Source: Planctomycetota bacterium (GTDB lineage: Bacteria > Planctomycetota > PUPC01 > JABMSA01 > JAUWKK01). Taken from it: 32,597 bases of DNA. Of the stretch, positions 4,941 to 32,439 are shown in pieces. The DNA lies in NCBI GenBank assembly GCA_030614245.1, contig JAUWKK010000002.1:1-32597 (forward strand). The letters are read 5' to 3'. The notes beneath the pieces are model-generated. The model was given only the letters and a program-made list of their open reading frames with translations, had not been told where the DNA came from and did not search any database. Each line of letters starts with the position of its first letter. Position 1 is the stretch's first letter. The translations under genes and the position numbers were made by a program.

Positions 4941-5282
4941 CTATGCTTGCTGCTCCTCACTGGATGCCGACTGCAAACGCAATTCCATGTCCGCCAATGC
5001 CAAGTTGCTCTTGATCTCGTTGAGCGTCGTGGAACCAGCGTTCCTATGGCGGAGGATGTCGTTTTCGGATAGCCTCGCCAGCTCCTCCATGCTGCTGATG
5101 GCATGATGACTCAATACATTGCGGGCCCTGACGCTCCATCCGAACTCCGATACCGGCGTGAACCCGGATCGCTTTTCGTCGGGCGACTTCCCGAGATAAA
5201 CCGCGCGCCGCAGGCGTTCAATCTCCAAAGCCGCGGCGATAAGTAGCTGGGCCTCTTCACGCAGTTTTTTCACAATATCCAT
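4941..5282 (-). CDS. RNA polymerase alpha-subunit C-terminal-domain-like protein
   Basis: FGWSVRARNVLSHHAISSMEELARLSENDILRHRNAGSTTLNEIKSNLALADMEL aligns by eye with RpoA CTD ([53 protein letters not shown]); AAAGGGG SD. Confidence 0.75.
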   Translation of the reverse strand: MDIVKKLREEAQLLIAAALEIERLRRAVYLGKSPDEKRSGFTPVSEFGWSVRARNVLSHHAISSMEELARLSENDILRHRNAGSTTLNEIKSNLALADMELRLQSASSEEQQA

Positions 5283-5311
5283 GATGCCCCTTTCAAGAAG
5301 CGCGGGGCCTG

Positions 5312-5422
5312 TCCGACGGCCTGGTCTTCGACCCCAGCCCGGGCGTCGAGCGCCTCTATCGGCCCAGGCCCCGCATTGCTCCGTGGAACGTTGTTAGTTC
5401 GATGATGCATCTCGACACCGCG
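5312..5422 (-). repeat. Leader direct repeat copy A (~111 bp)
   Basis: Same-orientation match to 6631-6741, about 13 differences by eye; lies ~30 nt upstream of the 5282 start. Confidence 0.85.
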
Positions 5423-6220
5423 TTATCGCACGCGTCGGGGTTTCAGTTTTTTCCGTGTGACTATCCGCCCCGTGCCGCCACAGTATTTACACTTCGCTTT
5501 CCGATACTTGCCGTCGTAATTACTTCTCGTTCCTCGCACGACCCCATCGCCGCCACAGCGAGGACAACGAATCTTTATCAGGCGAAATCTTGGCTTTGAT
5601 GTTTTCTGACTGAATGGCTTGGAGCCAATCGATTTGTTCCGGTGCGGCGCCTGCAGATCATCTGGAATCGTCTCCTCGAGGACGTCTGTATTTTCCGCTT
5701 CGTCTTTCCCGATAATTCTGCCCCGACGGTCTACGGCAAAGCGACAGATGAGTTTGAATTCATAAATCTCATACGTCCCGAACTTGGGGCCTTTGGGAGC
5801 AAACCGCCGAATGGCGGCTTTTGCTTTCCGGTAAGATGGAAAGAACATCAACCGATGACCAAGAGTGACCGGGGCTCGTCCAGGCGTTGAGAAGAAGAGT
5901 TGTTGACGTATTTCCGGTTTCTTCGCCGAGGCCGCAGCATCATTCATTGTCTGCAGCGCCCTGCCAGAGAGAGGCTGGAGGGTATCATCGCCATCACGGA
6001 TTGCCCCACACTCCGCTCCATCGACGTTGTAAAAGCGAAGGCCAAAGACAGATACAATCTTTTGGTCCCGTTCCTTAATCGCGGCACGTGGTACAGCCTG
6101 GCCGATTCGCTGGCCCGGGGCCGGTCGTTCCTGGGGCTGGTCGAGGTCGGGGGCCGCAGCTGCATCGCCGGCATCGGCGCCGGCGATGAGTCCCAGCAAG
6201 AACATAATAAACACATTCAT
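5423..6220 (-). CDS. Putative exported protein with DnaJ-type CxxCxGxG zinc motifs
   Basis: Hydrophobic N-terminus MNVFIMFLLGLIAGADA; C-terminal CPRCGGDGVVRGTRSNYDGKYRKAKCKYCGGTG. Confidence 0.6.
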   Translation of the reverse strand: MNVFIMFLLGLIAGADAGDAAAAPDLDQPQERPAPGQRIGQAVPRAAIKERDQKIVSVFGLRFYNVDGAECGAIRDGDDTLQPLSGRALQTMNDAAASAKKPEIRQQLFFSTPGRAPVTLGHRLMFFPSYRKAKAAIRRFAPKGPKFGTYEIYEFKLICRFAVDRRGRIIGKDEAENTDVLEETIPDDLQAPHRNKSIGSKPFSQKTSKPRFRLIKIRCPRCGGDGVVRGTRSNYDGKYRKAKCKYCGGTGRIVTRKKLKPRRVR

Positions 6221-6276
6221 TTCGTTCTCCTTTTTCGCCCCTCGATAAAGCCCCGTTCCCCCGGCGAGGGGTTTGA

Positions 6277-6298
6277 TCGCTGACCCCGAGGCCAGCGA
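6277..6298. repeat. 22-bp intergenic hairpin element, copy 1
   Basis: TCGCTGACCCCGAGGCCAGCGA; exact reverse complement of 26114-26135; 9-bp stem/4-nt loop. Confidence 0.7.
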
Positions 6299-6320
6299 AC
6301 CGGGAAGGGCATTGCGTCAT

Positions 6321-6605
6321 TTACCGACTATCCTCCAGCGCCCGCACCGCGTTGTCGAGAGCCGGATCATTGTGGAATGCCCCCGAGCTCCCGCCCGTGC
6401 GGCCGGCGTTCTCGTCCAGAATCTGCTCGATGTTGTCGTGGATATCGCCGCCGAGCACCTCGTTCGCACAATCAGGACAATACGCCGTCGTCCCGACCAT
6501 CAGCATTGCCCTATCGCCGCACCCGCACCAGCGCGGCCGCGCCTGCTCGGACAGCATATATATCTCCCCGCGCCGCCCTGCCCGTCTTTTACGTCGTGGC
6601 CTCAA
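6321..6605 (-). CDS. Small zinc-ribbon protein
   Basis: MLSEQARPRWCGCGDRAMLMVGTTAYCPDCANEVLGG...; TTG 6605 (after AGGAGG) or an internal ATG after GGGGAG. Confidence 0.55.
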   Translation of the reverse strand: MRPRRKRRAGRRGEIYMLSEQARPRWCGCGDRAMLMVGTTAYCPDCANEVLGGDIHDNIEQILDENAGRTGGSSGAFHNDPALDNAVRALEDSR

Positions 6606-6630
6606 CCCAACCTCCTATCTGCGGAGCTCA

Positions 6631-6741
6631 TCCGACGGCCTGGCGTTCGGCCCCAGCCCGGGCGTCAAGCGCCTCTACCGGCACGAGCCCTGCATTGCTC
6701 CGTGGAGCGTTGTTAGTTCCATGATGCATCTCGACTCTGCG
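6631..6741 (-). repeat. Leader direct repeat copy B (~111 bp)
   Basis: Same-orientation match to 5312-5422; lies ~26 nt upstream of the 6605 start. Confidence 0.85.
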
Positions 6742-6922
6742 CGACATGTCGTACGATTGTCGGGTGCGGGCGCACGCATCGATGTCACGCGGTATGAAGG
6801 CGTGTGCGTGCACCCGCTGGAGCTCTGCATTTGTAACTATCTCGCGTGACATCGTGCGGTCACCTTATCTCGGTTGGTTCCGTCAATCAAGGGTTTTTTC
6901 GCCGAGGGGCGAAAGTTTTATA

Positions 6923-7264
6923 TTATCTCTCATGGTTGAGGAGCTTCTTGATATCGAGTAGGTGATTGGCGATGACGCCGAGTCCGCCGATTATGAATGC
7001 GATGCCAACACTTAAGATACCGCAGCCCAAGATGATACACCCCGGAATTGATCGAGTCGCCGCTTGAGTTCCTCGTAAAATCTCGCCGCGACTATGCCAA
7101 AAACTCTCATGCCTTATATCGTATCCGACCGGCGTTGCCATCATGAACCCGATGAAGACGAGAAAAGCGGCCAGCAGTCCCAGGCCGACCGCACCCACTA
7201 TCATATCAGACCCGCGTTGTCGCTTCTTCTCGGTTCCCGGTATCGGTCCTTTGTGTCCCATCAT
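6923..7264 (-). CDS. Two-TM membrane protein
   Basis: MIVGAVGLGLLAAFLVFIGFMMA and CIILGCGILSVGIAFIIGGLGVIA; AAGGAG before ATGATG. Confidence 0.6.
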   Translation of the reverse strand: MMGHKGPIPGTEKKRQRGSDMIVGAVGLGLLAAFLVFIGFMMATPVGYDIRHESFWHSRGEILRGTQAATRSIPGCIILGCGILSVGIAFIIGGLGVIANHLLDIKKLLNHER

Positions 7265-7611
7265 CAAACTCCTTGCTTGTTGGTTGGAACGAGCGAGCGC
7301 GCCACTTGCATCGAGGCCCACGGGATCGGCCGCTCGCCCCGCTCATACCTGGCGATGTTGTTGCCCGTTGTGTGCAGCAGCTCCGCCAGGCGGGCCTGAG
7401 TGAGGCCGAGCCGCTTGCGGATGGTCCGCAGCTCTACACCCGAGGCCCAGCGGCGGTCGACGGTGCGCACAGATGCGTCTATGCCGATCATCGCATAGCT
7501 ATCCGGCTCGGCGAACCGCACGAGCGCGTAGACGTGAAGTCCGCCGCGTTCCTCATCGGCAGGGTGGCGGAGGAACTCGGCTATCAGTATGGCGTTCTGT
7601 GGTAGATTCAT
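7264..7611 (-). CDS. Xre-family HTH transcriptional regulator-like
   Basis: GVELRTIRKRLGLTQARLAELLHTTGNNIARYERGERPIP. Confidence 0.75.
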   Translation of the reverse strand: MNLPQNAILIAEFLRHPADEERGGLHVYALVRFAEPDSYAMIGIDASVRTVDRRWASGVELRTIRKRLGLTQARLAELLHTTGNNIARYERGERPIPWASMQVARSLVPTNKQGV

Positions 7612-8425: not shown

Positions 8426-8454
8426 ATTATACCACGGGCATAGGCCGAAGTCAA
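8426..8454 (-). promoter_or_regulatory. Near-consensus sigma70-type promoter with upstream A/T tract
   Basis: Minus strand TTGACT (8454-8449) - 17 nt - TATAAT (8431-8426), preceded by AAGTTTTTTATTTTTCC. Confidence 0.85.
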
Positions 8455-12676: not shown

Positions 12677-12802
12677 GGATTTCGGTCGGTCTTTCTTACC
12701 CTGCAGCCTGTAGCCTGCAGCCTGTAGCCTTCTTCTCATGGATTTCGGTCGGTCTTTCTTACCCTGCAGCCTGTAGCCTGCAGCCTGTAGCCTTCTTCTC
12801 AT
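12677..12802. repeat. Two tandem 63-bp units containing 7-bp subrepeats
   Basis: GGATTTCGGTCGGTCTTTCTTACCCTGCAGCCTGTAGCCTGCAGCCTGTAGCCTTCTTCTCAT at 12677-12739 and 12740-12802. Confidence 0.95.
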
Positions 12803-23212: not shown

Positions 23213-23998
23213 GTCCTCATCTCCTGAAAAAGCCGTGGGGGTGTCCCCCGAAATCGTCAATCCGTTTCTGATCAAGAACTCCGTTATAAACTTTCGCACC
23301 CGCTGCGGCTTCAGACCGCCGAATATATCGGCCGGCGGTTCGGCGTCCCGCAGCCCGAATACGTATCGGCAGGCGAGCTCGCCCAACGCCGTCAATTCTT
23401 GGGGTTGGCTCAAGAATCCTCCTGGATTCGCCGCCGGATCGTCCACAACATCAGTCGATGCCAGACTATCCAAGCGTGCGTGCATCAGGTCATCCTCATT
23501 CGCCTCGTCCGGACTCACGAAATCACCATCGTCATCCTCGTTCTCTTCGGCGAATTCCTTCTCGGCATCCGGGTCGTGGTAAAAGACGATGCTGGCGCCG
23601 AACATATCCGGCTCTTTATCGGCCATGCGCAATATGTACGAGCCGAGCTTGCCGTCGGGCGATTCGTCCGCCAACTCTGAGACATGGAGATCCGCCCGGA
23701 CGATATTCCCATCCAGACGATAATCCTTCGCCCGCCCGAGGAACTTGCCCAGGCCGTCGTTGCAAAGCCCCGGGTGCGTGAACCGCACCTTAACCCCCAG
23801 CTTCTTGGCATTGCCTCCCTCGACCACCTGTGCCAGGAAGGCGCGGTCAATCCAGAAGTCATGGCCCAGGGCCTCGCCCTCGGTTATCACCGCGAAGTCG
23901 CGGATGAGCTGCCGGTCAGCGTCCACCCGCGCATCCTTCATGCTCCCGGCAAAACTAAGGCGTTCCCGGTTCGGTCTACTTATCGTCGCTGTCGTCAT
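22778..23998 (-). CDS. Head maturation protease/scaffold fusion
   Basis: N-terminal protease-like region (VRFTHPG..., FGASIVFYHD), C-terminal helical scaffold-like region; between portal and decoration genes. Confidence 0.65.
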   Translation of the reverse strand: MTTATISRPNRERLSFAGSMKDARVDADRQLIRDFAVITEGEALGHDFWIDRAFLAQVVEGGNAKKLGVKVRFTHPGLCNDGLGKFLGRAKDYRLDGNIVRADLHVSELADESPDGKLGSYILRMADKEPDMFGASIVFYHDPDAEKEFAEENEDDDGDFVSPDEANEDDLMHARLDSLASTDVVDDPAANPGGFLSQPQELTALGELACRYVFGLRDAEPPADIFGGLKPQRVRKFITEFLIRNGLTISGDTPTAFSGDEDMADKKSLKEILVAMQQAFPEDADFALASAIGDLSVMEAKAAYCDKLQAELARVKTAGAEALKVQTVEVARLTEENAGIRKELLAGSDGVQHVPEPDAVTKEAAIAAAEKVAEARVRAEPGIRYQDAYAEAYKVEIAKRPTLDGA

Positions 23999-25598
23999 CT
24001 TCTTTCCTCTCTTTGGGCGGCGTGCCTCCTGCTAGCACAGCCTGCAATGTCTTCCCCTGGTCTACGCCGGCCAGGAGGGGCCAGAGTTCTTTCGCCGTAG
24101 CAAGACCCGCAGCGCCTTCCTCGACCTCCTGCGCCCTCTGTATGGCATCGAGGATCTCTTGACCCCGCGTCTCCAGGAACTCTCCCCGGTCCTGCGAGAG
24201 CGCGCCCAATGCATCCGTCTGCGTCGCCAGACCGCGGTCCATCTTCTTCGCCCAGGCCGAGACCTCTTTATCCTCGTCCACCCACGGCCAACTTGGGACC
24301 ACCCATTTGTGCTCGAGGATGCTAGACCGCCATGCCAATTTGCCCTCGGCCACCCAGCGCGCGACCTGCCAGCGATAGAGCCGCGAATAGAAACTCCGGA
24401 TCAGCAGCTGCTGCCACGCCCGGAACACGATGAATGCCTGCAGCAGCACGGCGCGCGAGCTCGAGTAATTCAGTTTGCCCCAGTCCAGCAGGATCAACTC
24501 GAGGGGAAGGCCGACGGGGATGGCGAAAAGCCTGATGAACAGCTTGACCGCTCCCTCGAAGTTCTGAGCGGGCCGCGTCTGGCGGATGCCCTTGATTTCC
24601 TGGCCCTTATCGCCGAAGAACGCCGTCGCCATGCCGACATTCATCACCTTCATATCCAGGTCGGGTATCTTCGCGACCGTCCGGTCTTCCGAGCCCGTTA
24701 CCCTGACTGGTTCCCCGCCCTCGGATGTCGTGACCGACAAGGCCAGCCGCGACAGCACCTGCCATGAAATGGCCTCGCTCGTCAGGATATCCTCGAGACG
24801 GTGAGCGATGGCCATTGAGGATACGAGTACCGGCACCCCGCGCGTCTGCGAGGACCGCTTGACGCGATTCAGGATATAAATTGCGTGCTCCGCCTCGATC
24901 GTCGTGGTATCGGCGTGTTCCGGATAGCCCCGGCCGCTGTCCGCGCCCGTTATTTCGAAGCCGACGATCCTGCCCCGCTTATCGAGCCGCACGCCCTGCT
25001 CGACCCTGATGCCCCGATCGTCCTCGCCCGCGGGCATCCTATTCGATCCGATGCGCTCTGCCTCGACGTGCTGCATTTGACCGTCCGCCAATTTCAGCAG
25101 CAACGTATCGCCGACTACCATCAACTCGCGCAGAACGATCTCCTCCATCTTCTTCCCGGGGTGGATTTCCCGCGCCTCGGGATTTTTCCACCACTCGTGC
25201 CATAATTTCTCGATCTTATCGTTCACGCTCGGGATGCTGGATTGGGCCTGCAAGCTGAATCCCGTCGGCCCGAGGATGTAATCGCACGCGCGGTTGATCA
25301 CCGCCTCATACAACCAGTTGTTGCGGTCGAGCCCGCGCGAGGCATCCACGAGCAGACCCCGGTCGTAGCGCATGTGGCTGTCCGCACTGCCCCCCACCTC
25401 CCAGCTGCCGGTCGACCGCAGGTAATCCGTGGCCTTATAGCCGAGTGCCGTATATTTGCCCACAGGCTGAAATTCCAGCGTATCGTCGGATTGAGAGGCA
25501 GTCCGCTTTCCCGGTTGGACGCCATCATTCACCTCGGCGGCCCCGGACCGCCCTCGACCAAATAGGCGTTGGAATTGGTTGCGAGCGGATTCAGTCAC
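23976..25598 (-). CDS. Portal protein (lambda-type)
   Basis: 540 aa; HAIYILNRVKRSSQTRGVPVLVSSMAIAHRLEDILTSEA...; position between terminase and protease. Confidence 0.85.
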   Translation of the reverse strand: MTESARNQFQRLFGRGRSGAAEVNDGVQPGKRTASQSDDTLEFQPVGKYTALGYKATDYLRSTGSWEVGGSADSHMRYDRGLLVDASRGLDRNNWLYEAVINRACDYILGPTGFSLQAQSSIPSVNDKIEKLWHEWWKNPEAREIHPGKKMEEIVLRELMVVGDTLLLKLADGQMQHVEAERIGSNRMPAGEDDRGIRVEQGVRLDKRGRIVGFEITGADSGRGYPEHADTTTIEAEHAIYILNRVKRSSQTRGVPVLVSSMAIAHRLEDILTSEAISWQVLSRLALSVTTSEGGEPVRVTGSEDRTVAKIPDLDMKVMNVGMATAFFGDKGQEIKGIRQTRPAQNFEGAVKLFIRLFAIPVGLPLELILLDWGKLNYSSSRAVLLQAFIVFRAWQQLLIRSFYSRLYRWQVARWVAEGKLAWRSSILEHKWVVPSWPWVDEDKEVSAWAKKMDRGLATQTDALGALSQDRGEFLETRGQEILDAIQRAQEVEEGAAGLATAKELWPLLAGVDQGKTLQAVLAGGTPPKERKEDDDSDDK

Positions 25599-26593: not shown

Positions 26594-27052
26594 CTAGGCG
26601 GTCGATGCGGCACCGGCGCCACCATCGCAGTCGGCGCGCCCCGTGCCCCCCCCTTCTTCGGCCGAATCTTTTTCGCTCTCTGCTTCTTCTCGTTTTTGCG
26701 CATCTAATGCTACTCCTATGTCATGCCAGGCGCGGTCGATACCCGCCTGAACGATGCCCCGTTGTTCATCCTCCAGCTCGACTATCGCCTCCATCCCTCC
26801 AATCTGCTCCCCGTGGAACTCCGCCGCTTGTTTGCAGGATTGCTTCTTGAGGTTTTCCAGACTCGCCTGCACGTTCCCCTCACGGGCAGCGAGCAGTACC
26901 AGCTCTTTCTCAAGCAGGATGATGGACTGCAGGCTTTGAATCTGCTCCCCATAGAACTTCGCCGCTTTTATGCAGGATTGCTTCCTGAGCTCTTCCTGCT
27001 GAATCCAGACTTTCATCTCCGCCACGTAGGTCTCGGTCTCCGCTTTCGTCAT
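26594..27052 (-). CDS. Hypothetical protein with internal 46-aa tandem duplication
   Basis: LRKQSCIKAAKFYGEQIQSLQSIILLEKE / LKKQSCKQAAEFHGEQIGGMEAIVELEDE; AAGGAG upstream. Confidence 0.6.
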   Translation of the reverse strand: MTKAETETYVAEMKVWIQQEELRKQSCIKAAKFYGEQIQSLQSIILLEKELVLLAAREGNVQASLENLKKQSCKQAAEFHGEQIGGMEAIVELEDEQRGIVQAGIDRAWHDIGVALDAQKREEAESEKDSAEEGGGTGRADCDGGAGAASTA

Positions 27053-27093: not shown

Positions 27094-29184
27094 CTAGTAC
27101 TCCGTCGTTATGTCCTTGGGCACGATTACCCGCCCAGCCCGCCTGGCGAGACGCGATCCCCGCGGCCCGCCCGGTTCTACCCATCCCCTCGGCTGTTTGC
27201 TGGCCGCCGCGGAGGCAGCGGCCACCTGCAACTTTTCGGCCTCGACCTCGAGAACCGTCATCATGGCCCCGCCCAGAGAATAGCAGGCACAGTCCCAGAC
27301 GTGGTAGCTCCCCTTTTCCACCCATACCCGCTTTTCCCTGCCTTTCACCATCGTTACCTCGCGCTTCGCGCGCATGAAGTGTGCGAATATCCATCCCTGA
27401 TTGCCGGGGCCTTTGCCGCGACCAGACCTGTCGCTGTTCGCCGCGTCCCGGGGGAAGTAATGATAGCCCGGACTCCCGGCTTCCCGAAATAGGCGGAACA
27501 GCACCTCGTCCTTGATGCGATCCACATCGAAGAACCACAATATCGAGTTATCGGGTTGCCTTCGGGCCTGCACCATATCCGGCGCGCCATCGATGAGCTG
27601 CAGTTGTTTGCCCGATGCCTTCATCTTGTTGAGCTGGCCTTCGGAGCGCCCGACGAGAGCATGCACCGCCCCACCCTGTTCTTTGCACCAGGTTCGTACC
27701 GTGTGGCCGAGAATGCCCTCGTGCTTGTAGCCAGTGTCGATCCATATCGATACGCAGTTGTAGATCGCCATTTGGGCCCGCACGGCGTCCAGAGCACGTC
27801 GCACGTCAGCTTTGGTCGGATCGCGCTCCAGACCCTCAGGGATGATCTCTTGCACGCCATAGTGCAACGTCCGGCGTGTCAGTGCCGCGTTGTAGCCATC
27901 GATGAGCCAGTATAGATTGATCTTCTGCACGTCGACCGCTCCCACGCAGAAATCCACGCCCTCGGGCAGGTCGCCCCCATCACCCAAGGGATCGAACCGG
28001 TAATCCGCAGCGTGTCTGGCGAGCAGGGCGTATGTAAGCGGCACTCCCTGCACATCGTCTTTCCACGGGATCGCCCAAGTGAACTGGCAGAGGGCTTTCT
28101 CTGCCGAGGTGCCCTCGGTTCTCTCGCCCGCCCATTCTTCTTCGGCGATGTCCGCCATCTTGCGCATCGTGCTATGCAGGGCATTCCAGCGGAAGCCGAA
28201 GGTACGCGTGGGCGGCGACGGGCCCACCACCTCGCCGTCGGGTTCCACGTGTTGGCCCCGGTGGACGATGCGAGGGTTGACTAAGGCGTTGCGCCGATCC
28301 AACTCACACCACACCGTGCCGCAATCAGCGCAGGCGTATGCACCACTAGCACGCGCCGCGAATTCATTTTCGGCATCCTCCCAGCCCCCGAACTGCTCCC
28401 GTTCGGGGCATTGCCAGGTACCGCAATGCGGGCATGCTACCATCACACGAGAATCCGAGCCGTTCTTGATCTCGGTATACACCCGACCCTTCTCTATGGA
28501 CATGGTACATTCGCCATAGAACACGGCGTCCTCGCTGAACGAGGCGGATCGGGCTTCAAATTGCTTGACCGGATCGGTCTCGCGAGAGACCGCGCCCGGC
28601 TGATCCATCTTATCCAGCTCCGTAGCTAATATGACCCGGGCCGTGTAGGAGGATCGCTGGGCATCGCTGCCGCCCGCGCCCATGAACCGCACCCTCGCGT
28701 CGTTCAGCAGCAGCAGCGATTTCGCCTTGCCGCCCCGACTGCCCGTCCCCGTCTCGGGCAGCAGATGCTTGTATCGGGTCATTTCCAGCGCCGGCAGTAT
28801 CCGCTCGATCCACACGGACTGCGCCAGCTCGATCACCGGCGCGCAGATTATGATATCCTCGGCCACCTCGAAGAGGTGATACGCGGCCGGGATCACGAGA
28901 AAGATGAAGGTCTTGCCGCCCTGCACTGGCCCGCTGCCGATGAACCGGCGAAAGACCCCGCCGTCCATAATCTGCAGCACCTGGCGCGTCCAGGGCATAA
29001 ATGACGTCTTGAACCGCAGGCCCCGCCTCGGCCCGGTGGGCAGGATCATCTCGGTCTCGGCGAACTCCAGGCGCGAACGCAACTTCCGCGGGCTGATGGC
29101 CCTGTAGAACGCCGTGATCGGCGCCAGCCAGTCCATCGCGGCACCTTGTTTAGCGGCCTTAGATAGTTGCGTCCGCTTCACCAT
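27094..29184 (-). CDS. Terminase large subunit (GpA family)
   Basis: GSGPVQGGKTFIFLVIPAAYHLFEVAEDIIICAPVIELAQSVW...ATELDKMDQPGAVSRETDPVKQFEARSASF. Confidence 0.9.
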   Translation of the reverse strand: MVKRTQLSKAAKQGAAMDWLAPITAFYRAISPRKLRSRLEFAETEMILPTGPRRGLRFKTSFMPWTRQVLQIMDGGVFRRFIGSGPVQGGKTFIFLVIPAAYHLFEVAEDIIICAPVIELAQSVWIERILPALEMTRYKHLLPETGTGSRGGKAKSLLLLNDARVRFMGAGGSDAQRSSYTARVILATELDKMDQPGAVSRETDPVKQFEARSASFSEDAVFYGECTMSIEKGRVYTEIKNGSDSRVMVACPHCGTWQCPEREQFGGWEDAENEFAARASGAYACADCGTVWCELDRRNALVNPRIVHRGQHVEPDGEVVGPSPPTRTFGFRWNALHSTMRKMADIAEEEWAGERTEGTSAEKALCQFTWAIPWKDDVQGVPLTYALLARHAADYRFDPLGDGGDLPEGVDFCVGAVDVQKINLYWLIDGYNAALTRRTLHYGVQEIIPEGLERDPTKADVRRALDAVRAQMAIYNCVSIWIDTGYKHEGILGHTVRTWCKEQGGAVHALVGRSEGQLNKMKASGKQLQLIDGAPDMVQARRQPDNSILWFFDVDRIKDEVLFRLFREAGSPGYHYFPRDAANSDRSGRGKGPGNQGWIFAHFMRAKREVTMVKGREKRVWVEKGSYHVWDCACYSLGGAMMTVLEVEAEKLQVAAASAAASKQPRGWVEPGGPRGSRLARRAGRVIVPKDITTEY

Positions 29185-30729: not shown

Positions 30730-31159
30730 TTCTGCCCGCGGGATTGTCAAGCCGGAAGCCGGCACCTGGTCCTCGACTACCTCGCCGTATGCTTCACCCA
30801 GCAACTCGGTCAGTGCATCCTCATCGAACCCGAGCAGCTCGATGTCGAAGTCCAATTCCTGCAACTCGCCGATCTCCAGCTTCAGCAGCGCCTCATCCCA
30901 ACCCGCGTTCGCAGCCAGCTTGTTGTCCGAGATTATCACCGCACGCTGCCATCACCCGGCCGTGGCCCGCGATGATGCCCCCTTCCGGGTCAATCAACAC
31001 CGGGTTCGTCCAGCCGAATTCCCGGATGCTGGCGACGATCTGAGCCACCTGCTCTTCGCTATGTGTCCGGGCGTTCCCAGCGTAGGGTTCCAGCACGTCC
31101 ACCGAACGATATATCACGCTCAGCTTTTTGCCGGCGACTTTCTTTTTCCTTTTCGACAT
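30721..31159 (-). pseudogene. ParB-domain gene with internal deletion and frame change
   Basis: MSKRKKKVAGKKLSVIYRSVDVLEPYAGNARTHSEEQVAQIVASIREFGWTNPVLIDPEGGIIAGHGRVMAA then, in another frame, IISDNKLAANAGWDEALLKLEIGELQELDFDIELLGFDED; intervening ParB residues missing. Confidence 0.7.
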
Positions 31160-32439
31160 ATCGGCTTCTGTCTCTTTGCCTTCTGTCCTGTCATCATCTG
31201 CCATCGGTCCACGATCACATCGCAATACCTCGGCTCGATCTCCATCCCATAGCAAACACGCCCGAGCTGCTCGGCGGCGATCAGCGTCGTGCCCGAGCCG
31301 AGGAAGGGGTCGTAGACGAGTTCGCCGGGCTTTGTGCTGTCGCCCATCTGCTCTGCTACCAACTCCATCGGCTTGATTGTTGGGTGCGCTTCGCTTTGCG
31401 TAGGGCGCTTGTATTCGAAGATGGTGTCGCGTGTCCTCTCCTTTGTGAAGTAGTGACCGGCACCCGGAGTCCAACCATAGAAGATCGGCTCGTGCCTGTA
31501 GTGATAGTCACTACGCCCCATCACGAAACTACTCTTCACCCATATCAATGAACGACGCCATATCTTCAAGTCGATGAGCACGGCACCAAAGACGTTATGT
31601 AGCGGCCCCGGCGGGGCCGCTACATACCACGCGGCTCCCTTCTCGCAGACCGCCACTGCAAGCGTGAACGCATTGGTCAGCAACGATTGCAGACCAACCT
31701 CGTCCAGGTTGTCTCCGGCGACCTCCATTCCGCCCATTCGCTTTCGTTCGGCGGGGCTGTATTGATGGCTGAACCCATCAACATACCCAACTCCGTACGG
31801 CGGATCAGTCCAAACCAATCGAGCCTTCTCGCCCGCCATTAGCATCGCAACGTCTTCCTTCTTCGTGCTGTCTCCGCACATCACGCGGTGCGGTCCCATC
31901 GTAATCAGATCGCCGGTTTTCGTCCTGGCCTTCTTCGGGGGCTGTGGCACCGCGTCCTCTTCCACCTCCGGCTCATCGACCGGGAAGTCCACCAGCAGCA
32001 GATCGAGGTTCAGTCGCTCGAATTGTTCCGGGTCGATATCCTGGAGGCCGTCCAGCAGCCCGGTCACGTCGATCGTGAAGTCGCCCGCGATGTGCGAATT
32101 GTTCGCCGTGAGGTTCGCCGCCTGCTCCGTCGCCAGGTCCCAGTCCACCACCCGCACATCGAACCGGTCACCCCCACACACCACATAGACTTTGCCTTGC
32201 CTCTTGTGGAACTTGCCCCCTGCCGCCTGCAACTGTGCCACGCGCTGATGCCCGCAGACCAGATTCCCGGTCTGAGAGTTCCAAACGATGCCGCTTATGT
32301 CCCCAAACTCGACCAGACTGTGGCGGAGGCCCTCCGCGGCTTCTTGTGTGATATCCCGCGGGTTGTAATGCGCGGGCCGCAAGTCGTCGAACGACCCCGG
32401 TATTTTGGGGTATGTTGTCATTTTTTTCCGCCGCGCCAT
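31120..32439 (-). CDS. ParB-domain/DNA methyltransferase (beta-class N4/N6 type)
   Basis: N-terminal LRPAHYNPRDITQEAAEGLRHSLVEFG...LVCGHQRVAQL; motif IV DPPYGVGY; motif I DPFLGSGTTLIAAEQLGR. Confidence 0.9.
   Translation of the reverse strand: MARRKKMTTYPKIPGSFDDLRPAHYNPRDITQEAAEGLRHSLVEFGDISGIVWNSQTGNLVCGHQRVAQLQAAGGKFHKRQGKVYVVCGGDRFDVRVVDWDLATEQAANLTANNSHIAGDFTIDVTGLLDGLQDIDPEQFERLNLDLLLVDFPVDEPEVEEDAVPQPPKKARTKTGDLITMGPHRVMCGDSTKKEDVAMLMAGEKARLVWTDPPYGVGYVDGFSHQYSPAERKRMGGMEVAGDNLDEVGLQSLLTNAFTLAVAVCEKGAAWYVAAPPGPLHNVFGAVLIDLKIWRRSLIWVKSSFVMGRSDYHYRHEPIFYGWTPGAGHYFTKERTRDTIFEYKRPTQSEAHPTIKPMELVAEQMGDSTKPGELVYDPFLGSGTTLIAAEQLGRVCYGMEIEPRYCDVIVDRWQMMTGQKAKRQKPICRKGKRKSPAKS

Follow-up and report, generated by a model that had tools for sequence, protein, structure and literature searches.

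A repeated 115-nt non-coding element before two accessory genes of a phage or prophage, a candidate cis-acting structured RNA

Why should a single contig carry nearly the same leader in front of two genes that are unrelated to each other? The window analysed here, a stretch of 32,597 nt, is one entire contig of a 2.85-Mb, 414-contig assembly and, judged by its predicted genes, it carries a phage or prophage with nearly all its genes on the minus strand. The closest relatives of the terminase are 34-44% identical and the nearest portal is 42% identical, so this is a phage without a near relative in the data searched. Relatives of the terminase, portal and capsid exist; only the structural module is held in common. 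An earlier note, made from the letters of the sequence, had described a leader of some 111 bp repeated upstream of two accessory genes and proposed three readings: a regulatory RNA acting in cis, a leader that binds a protein, or a promoter module. Is the repeat a defined unit? Does it encode a protein? Does it act as RNA, as DNA, or not at all? The reading that we tentatively favour, at somewhat below an even chance, is a cis-acting structured RNA in the leftward accessory-gene mRNA of the phage or prophage. With two copies in hand the element is a candidate only. The relevant features are collected in Table 1.

Table 1. Positions of the repeated element, its parts and neighbouring features in the window
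Feature	Positions	Strand	Remarks
Element copy 1	5302-5416	-	Repeat; model R1 143 bits
Element copy 2	6621-6735	-	Repeat; model R1 141 bits
Copy 1, conserved 5' part (GUCGAGAUGCAUCAUCGAACUAACAACGUUCCACGGAGCAAU)	5375-5416	-	Just 2 differences between copies
Copy 2, conserved 5' part	6694-6735	-	Counterpart of 5375-5416
Copy 1, predicted three-way junction	5302-5374	-	Outer arms 5302-5311 / 5365-5374, a perfect 10-bp inverted repeat
Copy 2, predicted three-way junction	6621-6693	-	Same outer stem; compensatory and G-U changes, one mismatch
Block GAACUAACAACGNUCCACGGAGCAAUGC			Sequence block of the 115-nt element, usable as a search pattern like model R1
Alpha-CTD-like gene after copy 1	4941-5282	-	Stand-alone, 113 aa; Pfam PF03118 9.4e-12; PDB alpha subunits 2.7e-6
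Ribosome-site-like GAAAGGGG	5287-5294	-	Ahead of the alpha-CTD-like gene
Gene before copy 1	5423-6220	-	Stop codon 6 nt upstream of the element
Small-protein gene after copy 2	6321-6605	-	CxC...CPDC motif; AGGAGG before TTG 6605; possible alternative ATG 6557
Promoter-like site, TTGACT-17-TATAAT with TG	8426-8454	-	11/12 consensus positions; upstream of both copies
Portal	23976-25598		Phage gene
GpA-type terminase	27094-29184		Phage gene
N4/N6 DNA methyltransferase protein	31120-32439		On the phage contig

The repeat itself is as had been described: blastn aligns 5312-5422 with 6631-6741 in the same orientation at exactly 98 of 111 positions (88.3% identity, E 4.5e-36). A repeat search lengthens the match to 121 nt at 86%. 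The ungapped alignment of the copies reaches 5302 and 6621, where four of the ten terminal positions are unlike, and five of the six positions beyond differ. At the opposite edge the match is continuous inward from 5416 and 6735, and the flanks outside these limits are no more similar than shuffles. Since the left 10 nt pair with an arm inside the repeat, and similarity ends where that stem ends, the better unit is one of 115 nt, which replaces the 111-bp definition; this exact unit and its outer stem are new relative to the earlier note. The two copies differ at 15 positions, 12 of the changes being transitions.

The same comparison bears on a neutral origin, in which an intergenic stretch was copied once during accessory-gene shuffling and has drifted since without function, its pairing changes being luck or the product of template-switch mutation between stem arms. 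Two copies on one contig with 13 to 15 differences suit such drift, and the significance of the pairing described below is only 0.5-5%. However, the unit and its outer stem share the same 3' boundary, the substitutions cluster in the stem arms and one loop rather than being spread evenly, and equal placement before two unrelated genes came about with no gene sequence co-copied. We consider a purely neutral duplication rather unlikely.

Both copies are intergenic and lie on the coding, minus, strand. Copy 1 fills most of the 140 nt that separate the TAA of the gene before it from the ATG where the alpha-CTD-like gene begins, and copy 2 sits in a 317-nt gap ahead of the small-protein gene. The 115-nt units stop 19 nt (copy 1) and 15 nt (copy 2) before the start codons. 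Measured from the 111-bp repeat the distances are 29 nt to ATG 5282 and 25 nt to TTG 6605, in line with the 26-30 nt or so first reported. Between element and start codon stands a ribosome-site-like sequence, GAAAGGGG or AGGAGG, respectively. A position on the same strand shortly before a gene start is what would be expected of a structured cis-regulatory RNA.

As to the two genes, the alpha-CTD-like assignment made by eye is confirmed by Pfam and by alpha subunits in the PDB. In a comparison by eye with E. coli alpha, the equivalents of R265, N268, G296 and E302 are kept and that of K298 is not. The protein has no relative in GenBank phages or IMG/VR. The label of zinc-ribbon for the second product retains the cysteine motif as its sole basis, with no Pfam or PHROG match. 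The gene before copy 1 encodes a 265-residue product with a signal-peptide-like start and a DnaJ-type zinc domain at the end; it gives weak matches to Q-like antiterminators, and neither 393 genomes of the same phylum nor GenBank phages contain a relative.

Could the repeat be a small protein-coding gene copied before two others? The minus frame MHHxTNNxPRSNAG...EALDARAG... is open in both copies and in copy 2 forms part of a 74-residue open reading frame (6628-6852) whose ATG is preceded by AAGGTG. This open reading frame has no counterpart before copy 1, which lacks the upstream part. Moreover, in none of the six frames do the differences between copies favour a particular codon position, which agrees with the earlier remark that third positions are not favoured, and most changed codons are non-synonymous in the six frames, 9 of 12 in the minus frame. 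Peptide searches with both open frames returned nothing in phages, IMG/VR or Pfam. A coding origin is thus highly improbable, and the description of the repeat as a non-coding leader before genes is supported by its position and by the lack of coding constraint in any frame.

On the minus strand both copies are modelled as a small hairpin, GYUC-CACG-GAGC, plus a three-way junction made of an outer stem, GGCG-CUYGA-CGCC and CGG.CUGG-(9-nt loop)-CCAG.CCG. The two inner hairpins had been noticed before. The first is present in both copies with its sole difference in the loop; the second, given as GGGCTGG/CCAGGCC around a variable loop, also occurs in both, with a 9-nt loop, but includes one G-G mismatch. 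Each copy can make all 28 pairs of the model. In the outer stem two pairs are altered on both sides with pairing kept (C-G to U-A and U-A to C-G), four further pairs are altered on one side with pairing kept, and at one additional outer-stem position copy 2 has lost a pair that copy 1 makes. Copy 1 folds better than shuffled sequences (z -2.4), whilst copy 2 does no better than its shuffles (z 0.05). Shuffling the columns of the junction gives a z of -3.1 (2 of 500). When the same substitutions are placed at random, energy and covariation equal to or better than those observed arise in 5 of 1000 trials if copy 2 is the starting sequence and in 45 of 1000 if copy 1 is, and the plus strand gives nearly equal values of 9 and 37 per 1000. 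The covariation test compares only two sequences (P about 0.005-0.05), and for that reason the signal is weak and could be chance. These data are suggestive of base pairing in the element on one strand or the other, and the direction of the operon favours the minus strand. For the proposal of a cis-regulatory RNA, the pair-preserving changes, two of them two-sided and four one-sided, give moderate support to a structure and do not separate binding as RNA from binding as DNA. We also considered a switch, with the ribosome site masked by the outer stem's 3' arm (GCCCC with GGGGC; CUCC with GGAG). Such pairing is at chance level, being equalled at 17% and 33% of sites on the same strand, and a switch is therefore not claimed.

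Both copies probably lie inside one leftward operon. The promoter-like site upstream of them is by far the best of the window, with 0.15 expected per window at that score; it is the probable promoter of the accessory operon, and suggests that the operon starts there. As a side observation, the extended -10 of this site suggests that the gene annotated from 8521 begins further in. A sigma-70 pattern scan finds no site of at least 9/12 in either copy, and for promoters of this type the idea that the repeat is itself a promoter module is not supported. A related proposal is a DNA-level module before two genes, an operator or a non-sigma-70 promoter to which a DNA-binding protein of phage or host would bind. 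Inverted-repeat symmetry suits DNA as well as RNA, the statistics of pairing are compatible with either strand, and the adjacent genes include those for an HTH protein (7264-7611) and for the alpha-CTD-like protein. Set against this, few operators would be expected to reach 115 nt, neither copy has a sigma-70-like promoter, and the copies are found between genes of an apparent single operon with its own upstream promoter. We judge a DNA module unlikely; a control element is probably RNA and less likely DNA.

There is no minus-strand intrinsic terminator in the element and none above chance downstream of it. This matters for a further possibility, a putative intercistronic processing or elongation element (an RNase III-type site, or an antitermination RNA like put or EAR) in place of a leader that acts on translation. 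The two copies, with several stem-loops, are intercistronic and follow the probable promoter at distances of about 1.7 and 3 kb, as might be expected of such a device, but no downstream terminator would need antitermination and Rfam holds no match to EAR or others. This explanation appears very unlikely. Upstream of copy 2, the stretch 6761-6915 contains nested inverted repeats (12 bp perfect, 6780-6791/6843-6854; 17 bp, 6761-6777/6800-6816) and, at 6896-6915, a plus-strand terminator-like hairpin with a T-run, opposed to the gene direction.

For a cis-acting structured RNA, the sequence of events might be as follows. An mRNA started at the promoter-like site near 8430 would include both copies. 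Each would fold into the three-way junction, in which the hairpin with the variable loop and an invariant hairpin are closed by the outer stem, preceded by a conserved and mostly unpaired stretch, and the element would end just short of the ribosome-binding site that serves the next gene, by a few nucleotides. The most likely effect would be to set translation of that gene, or to direct cutting or protection of the mRNA, with a phage or host protein perhaps recognising the conserved parts. In favour are a sharp unit with unrelated flanks, on the same strand and at the same distance to the ribosome site, the lack of a coding signal, and a strong promoter-like site upstream with none in the element. 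Against it stand covariation from two sequences that the plus strand nearly equals, the folding of copy 2 at the level of its shuffles, the broken outer-stem pair, the chance-level pairing with the ribosome site, and the lack of a third copy and of any Rfam match. The RNA fold and the shared operon are, in our assessment, supported but short of proof.

The earlier note had suggested that related phage contigs be searched for more copies; none was found in the phage data searched. The 2.85-Mb assembly itself contains two copies only, with no partial copies elsewhere in the window beyond chance. At the DNA level, two overlapping sets of genomes from the same phylum, 200 and 393 in number, gave only 20-60-nt chance matches in GC-rich DNA. 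Covariance model R1 applied to the 393 genomes reported 23 genomes at E <= 0.1 compared with approximately 39 expected by chance, and on inspection four of the best matches, together with an extra weak match in the own genome, look like chance. In IMG/VR two DNA patterns and two peptide-profile scans had no match, and a third DNA pattern gave two 17-base matches, unscored by model R1. No copy was found in GenBank phages or PLSDB plasmids, nor was the element seen in the parts examined of the terminase, portal and capsid relatives. Rfam, which includes riboswitches, ribozymes and EAR, gave no match at the gathering threshold, nor when E values as high as 1 were admitted, and the element matches no tRNA.

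The nearest known phenomenon is the start-associated sequence (SAS) of cluster K mycobacteriophages, repeated just before the start codons of unrelated non-structural genes and nearly all in one orientation (PMC3203893). SAS is a 13-bp word, GGGATAGGAGCCC, with up to two deviations, placed 3-7 bp before start codons with the ribosome site inside; the extended form (ESAS) adds 17-bp inverted repeats, there are many per genome across related phages, and SAS is thought to act at translation start (PMC3203893). The element resembles SAS in having copies in one orientation before unrelated genes and in being partly an inverted repeat, and differs in being 115 nt long, of unrelated sequence and limited to two copies in one phage. 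The defining 13-bp word has no match in the window with up to two mismatches, and four matches with three mismatches compared with 13 expected by chance, so the element is not a member of SAS. Structured leaders on phage accessory genes are nevertheless a known kind, since manA and wcaG are structured leader RNAs in the presumed 5' UTR of such genes, with many homologues (PMC2864571). Our element likewise has a predicted structure and a presumed 5' UTR setting, but has two copies only and no Rfam family.

Multi-stem antitermination RNAs of roughly 65-120 nt are represented by HK022 put, with two copies per phage genome, and B. subtilis EAR, which lies inside an operon. The element is like them in length, in number (put) and in location within an operon (EAR), whereas there is no sequence match. 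The RNase III sites of phage T7 are repeated hairpins between operon genes, ahead of start codons, each long and essentially unbranched with an internal loop. Repeated hairpins before start codons within one phage operon are common to both, but the present element is predicted to be a three-way junction.

A bolder proposal, which we place on the unlikely side, is a new family of phage cis-acting three-way-junction RNAs, copied to several gene starts within an operon so that one factor, from phage or host, could control them through a common handle. Such RNAs would be the large, structured equivalent of SAS in mycobacteriophages. If real, the element would provide a testable pair of paralogous RNA leaders from an uncultivated phage lineage, and the poorly understood class of repeats at phage gene starts, so far short words, would come to include a folded RNA of 115 nt. 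As one target gene encodes a stand-alone alpha-CTD-like protein, the element might tie RNA control to transcription takeover.

Two other identities were set aside. An integron attC site has no matching R'/R'' pair by eye, and a diversity-generating retroelement does not fit differences that are not limited to A positions. Elsewhere on the contig a perfect 63-bp tandem duplication (12677-12802, 100%) lies between two tail-region genes, a 93-bp internal repeat of 75% identity is found within a coding region (26766-26996, minus strand), and a tRNA-Met (CAT) gene occurs amid the phage genes (26037-26112, minus strand).
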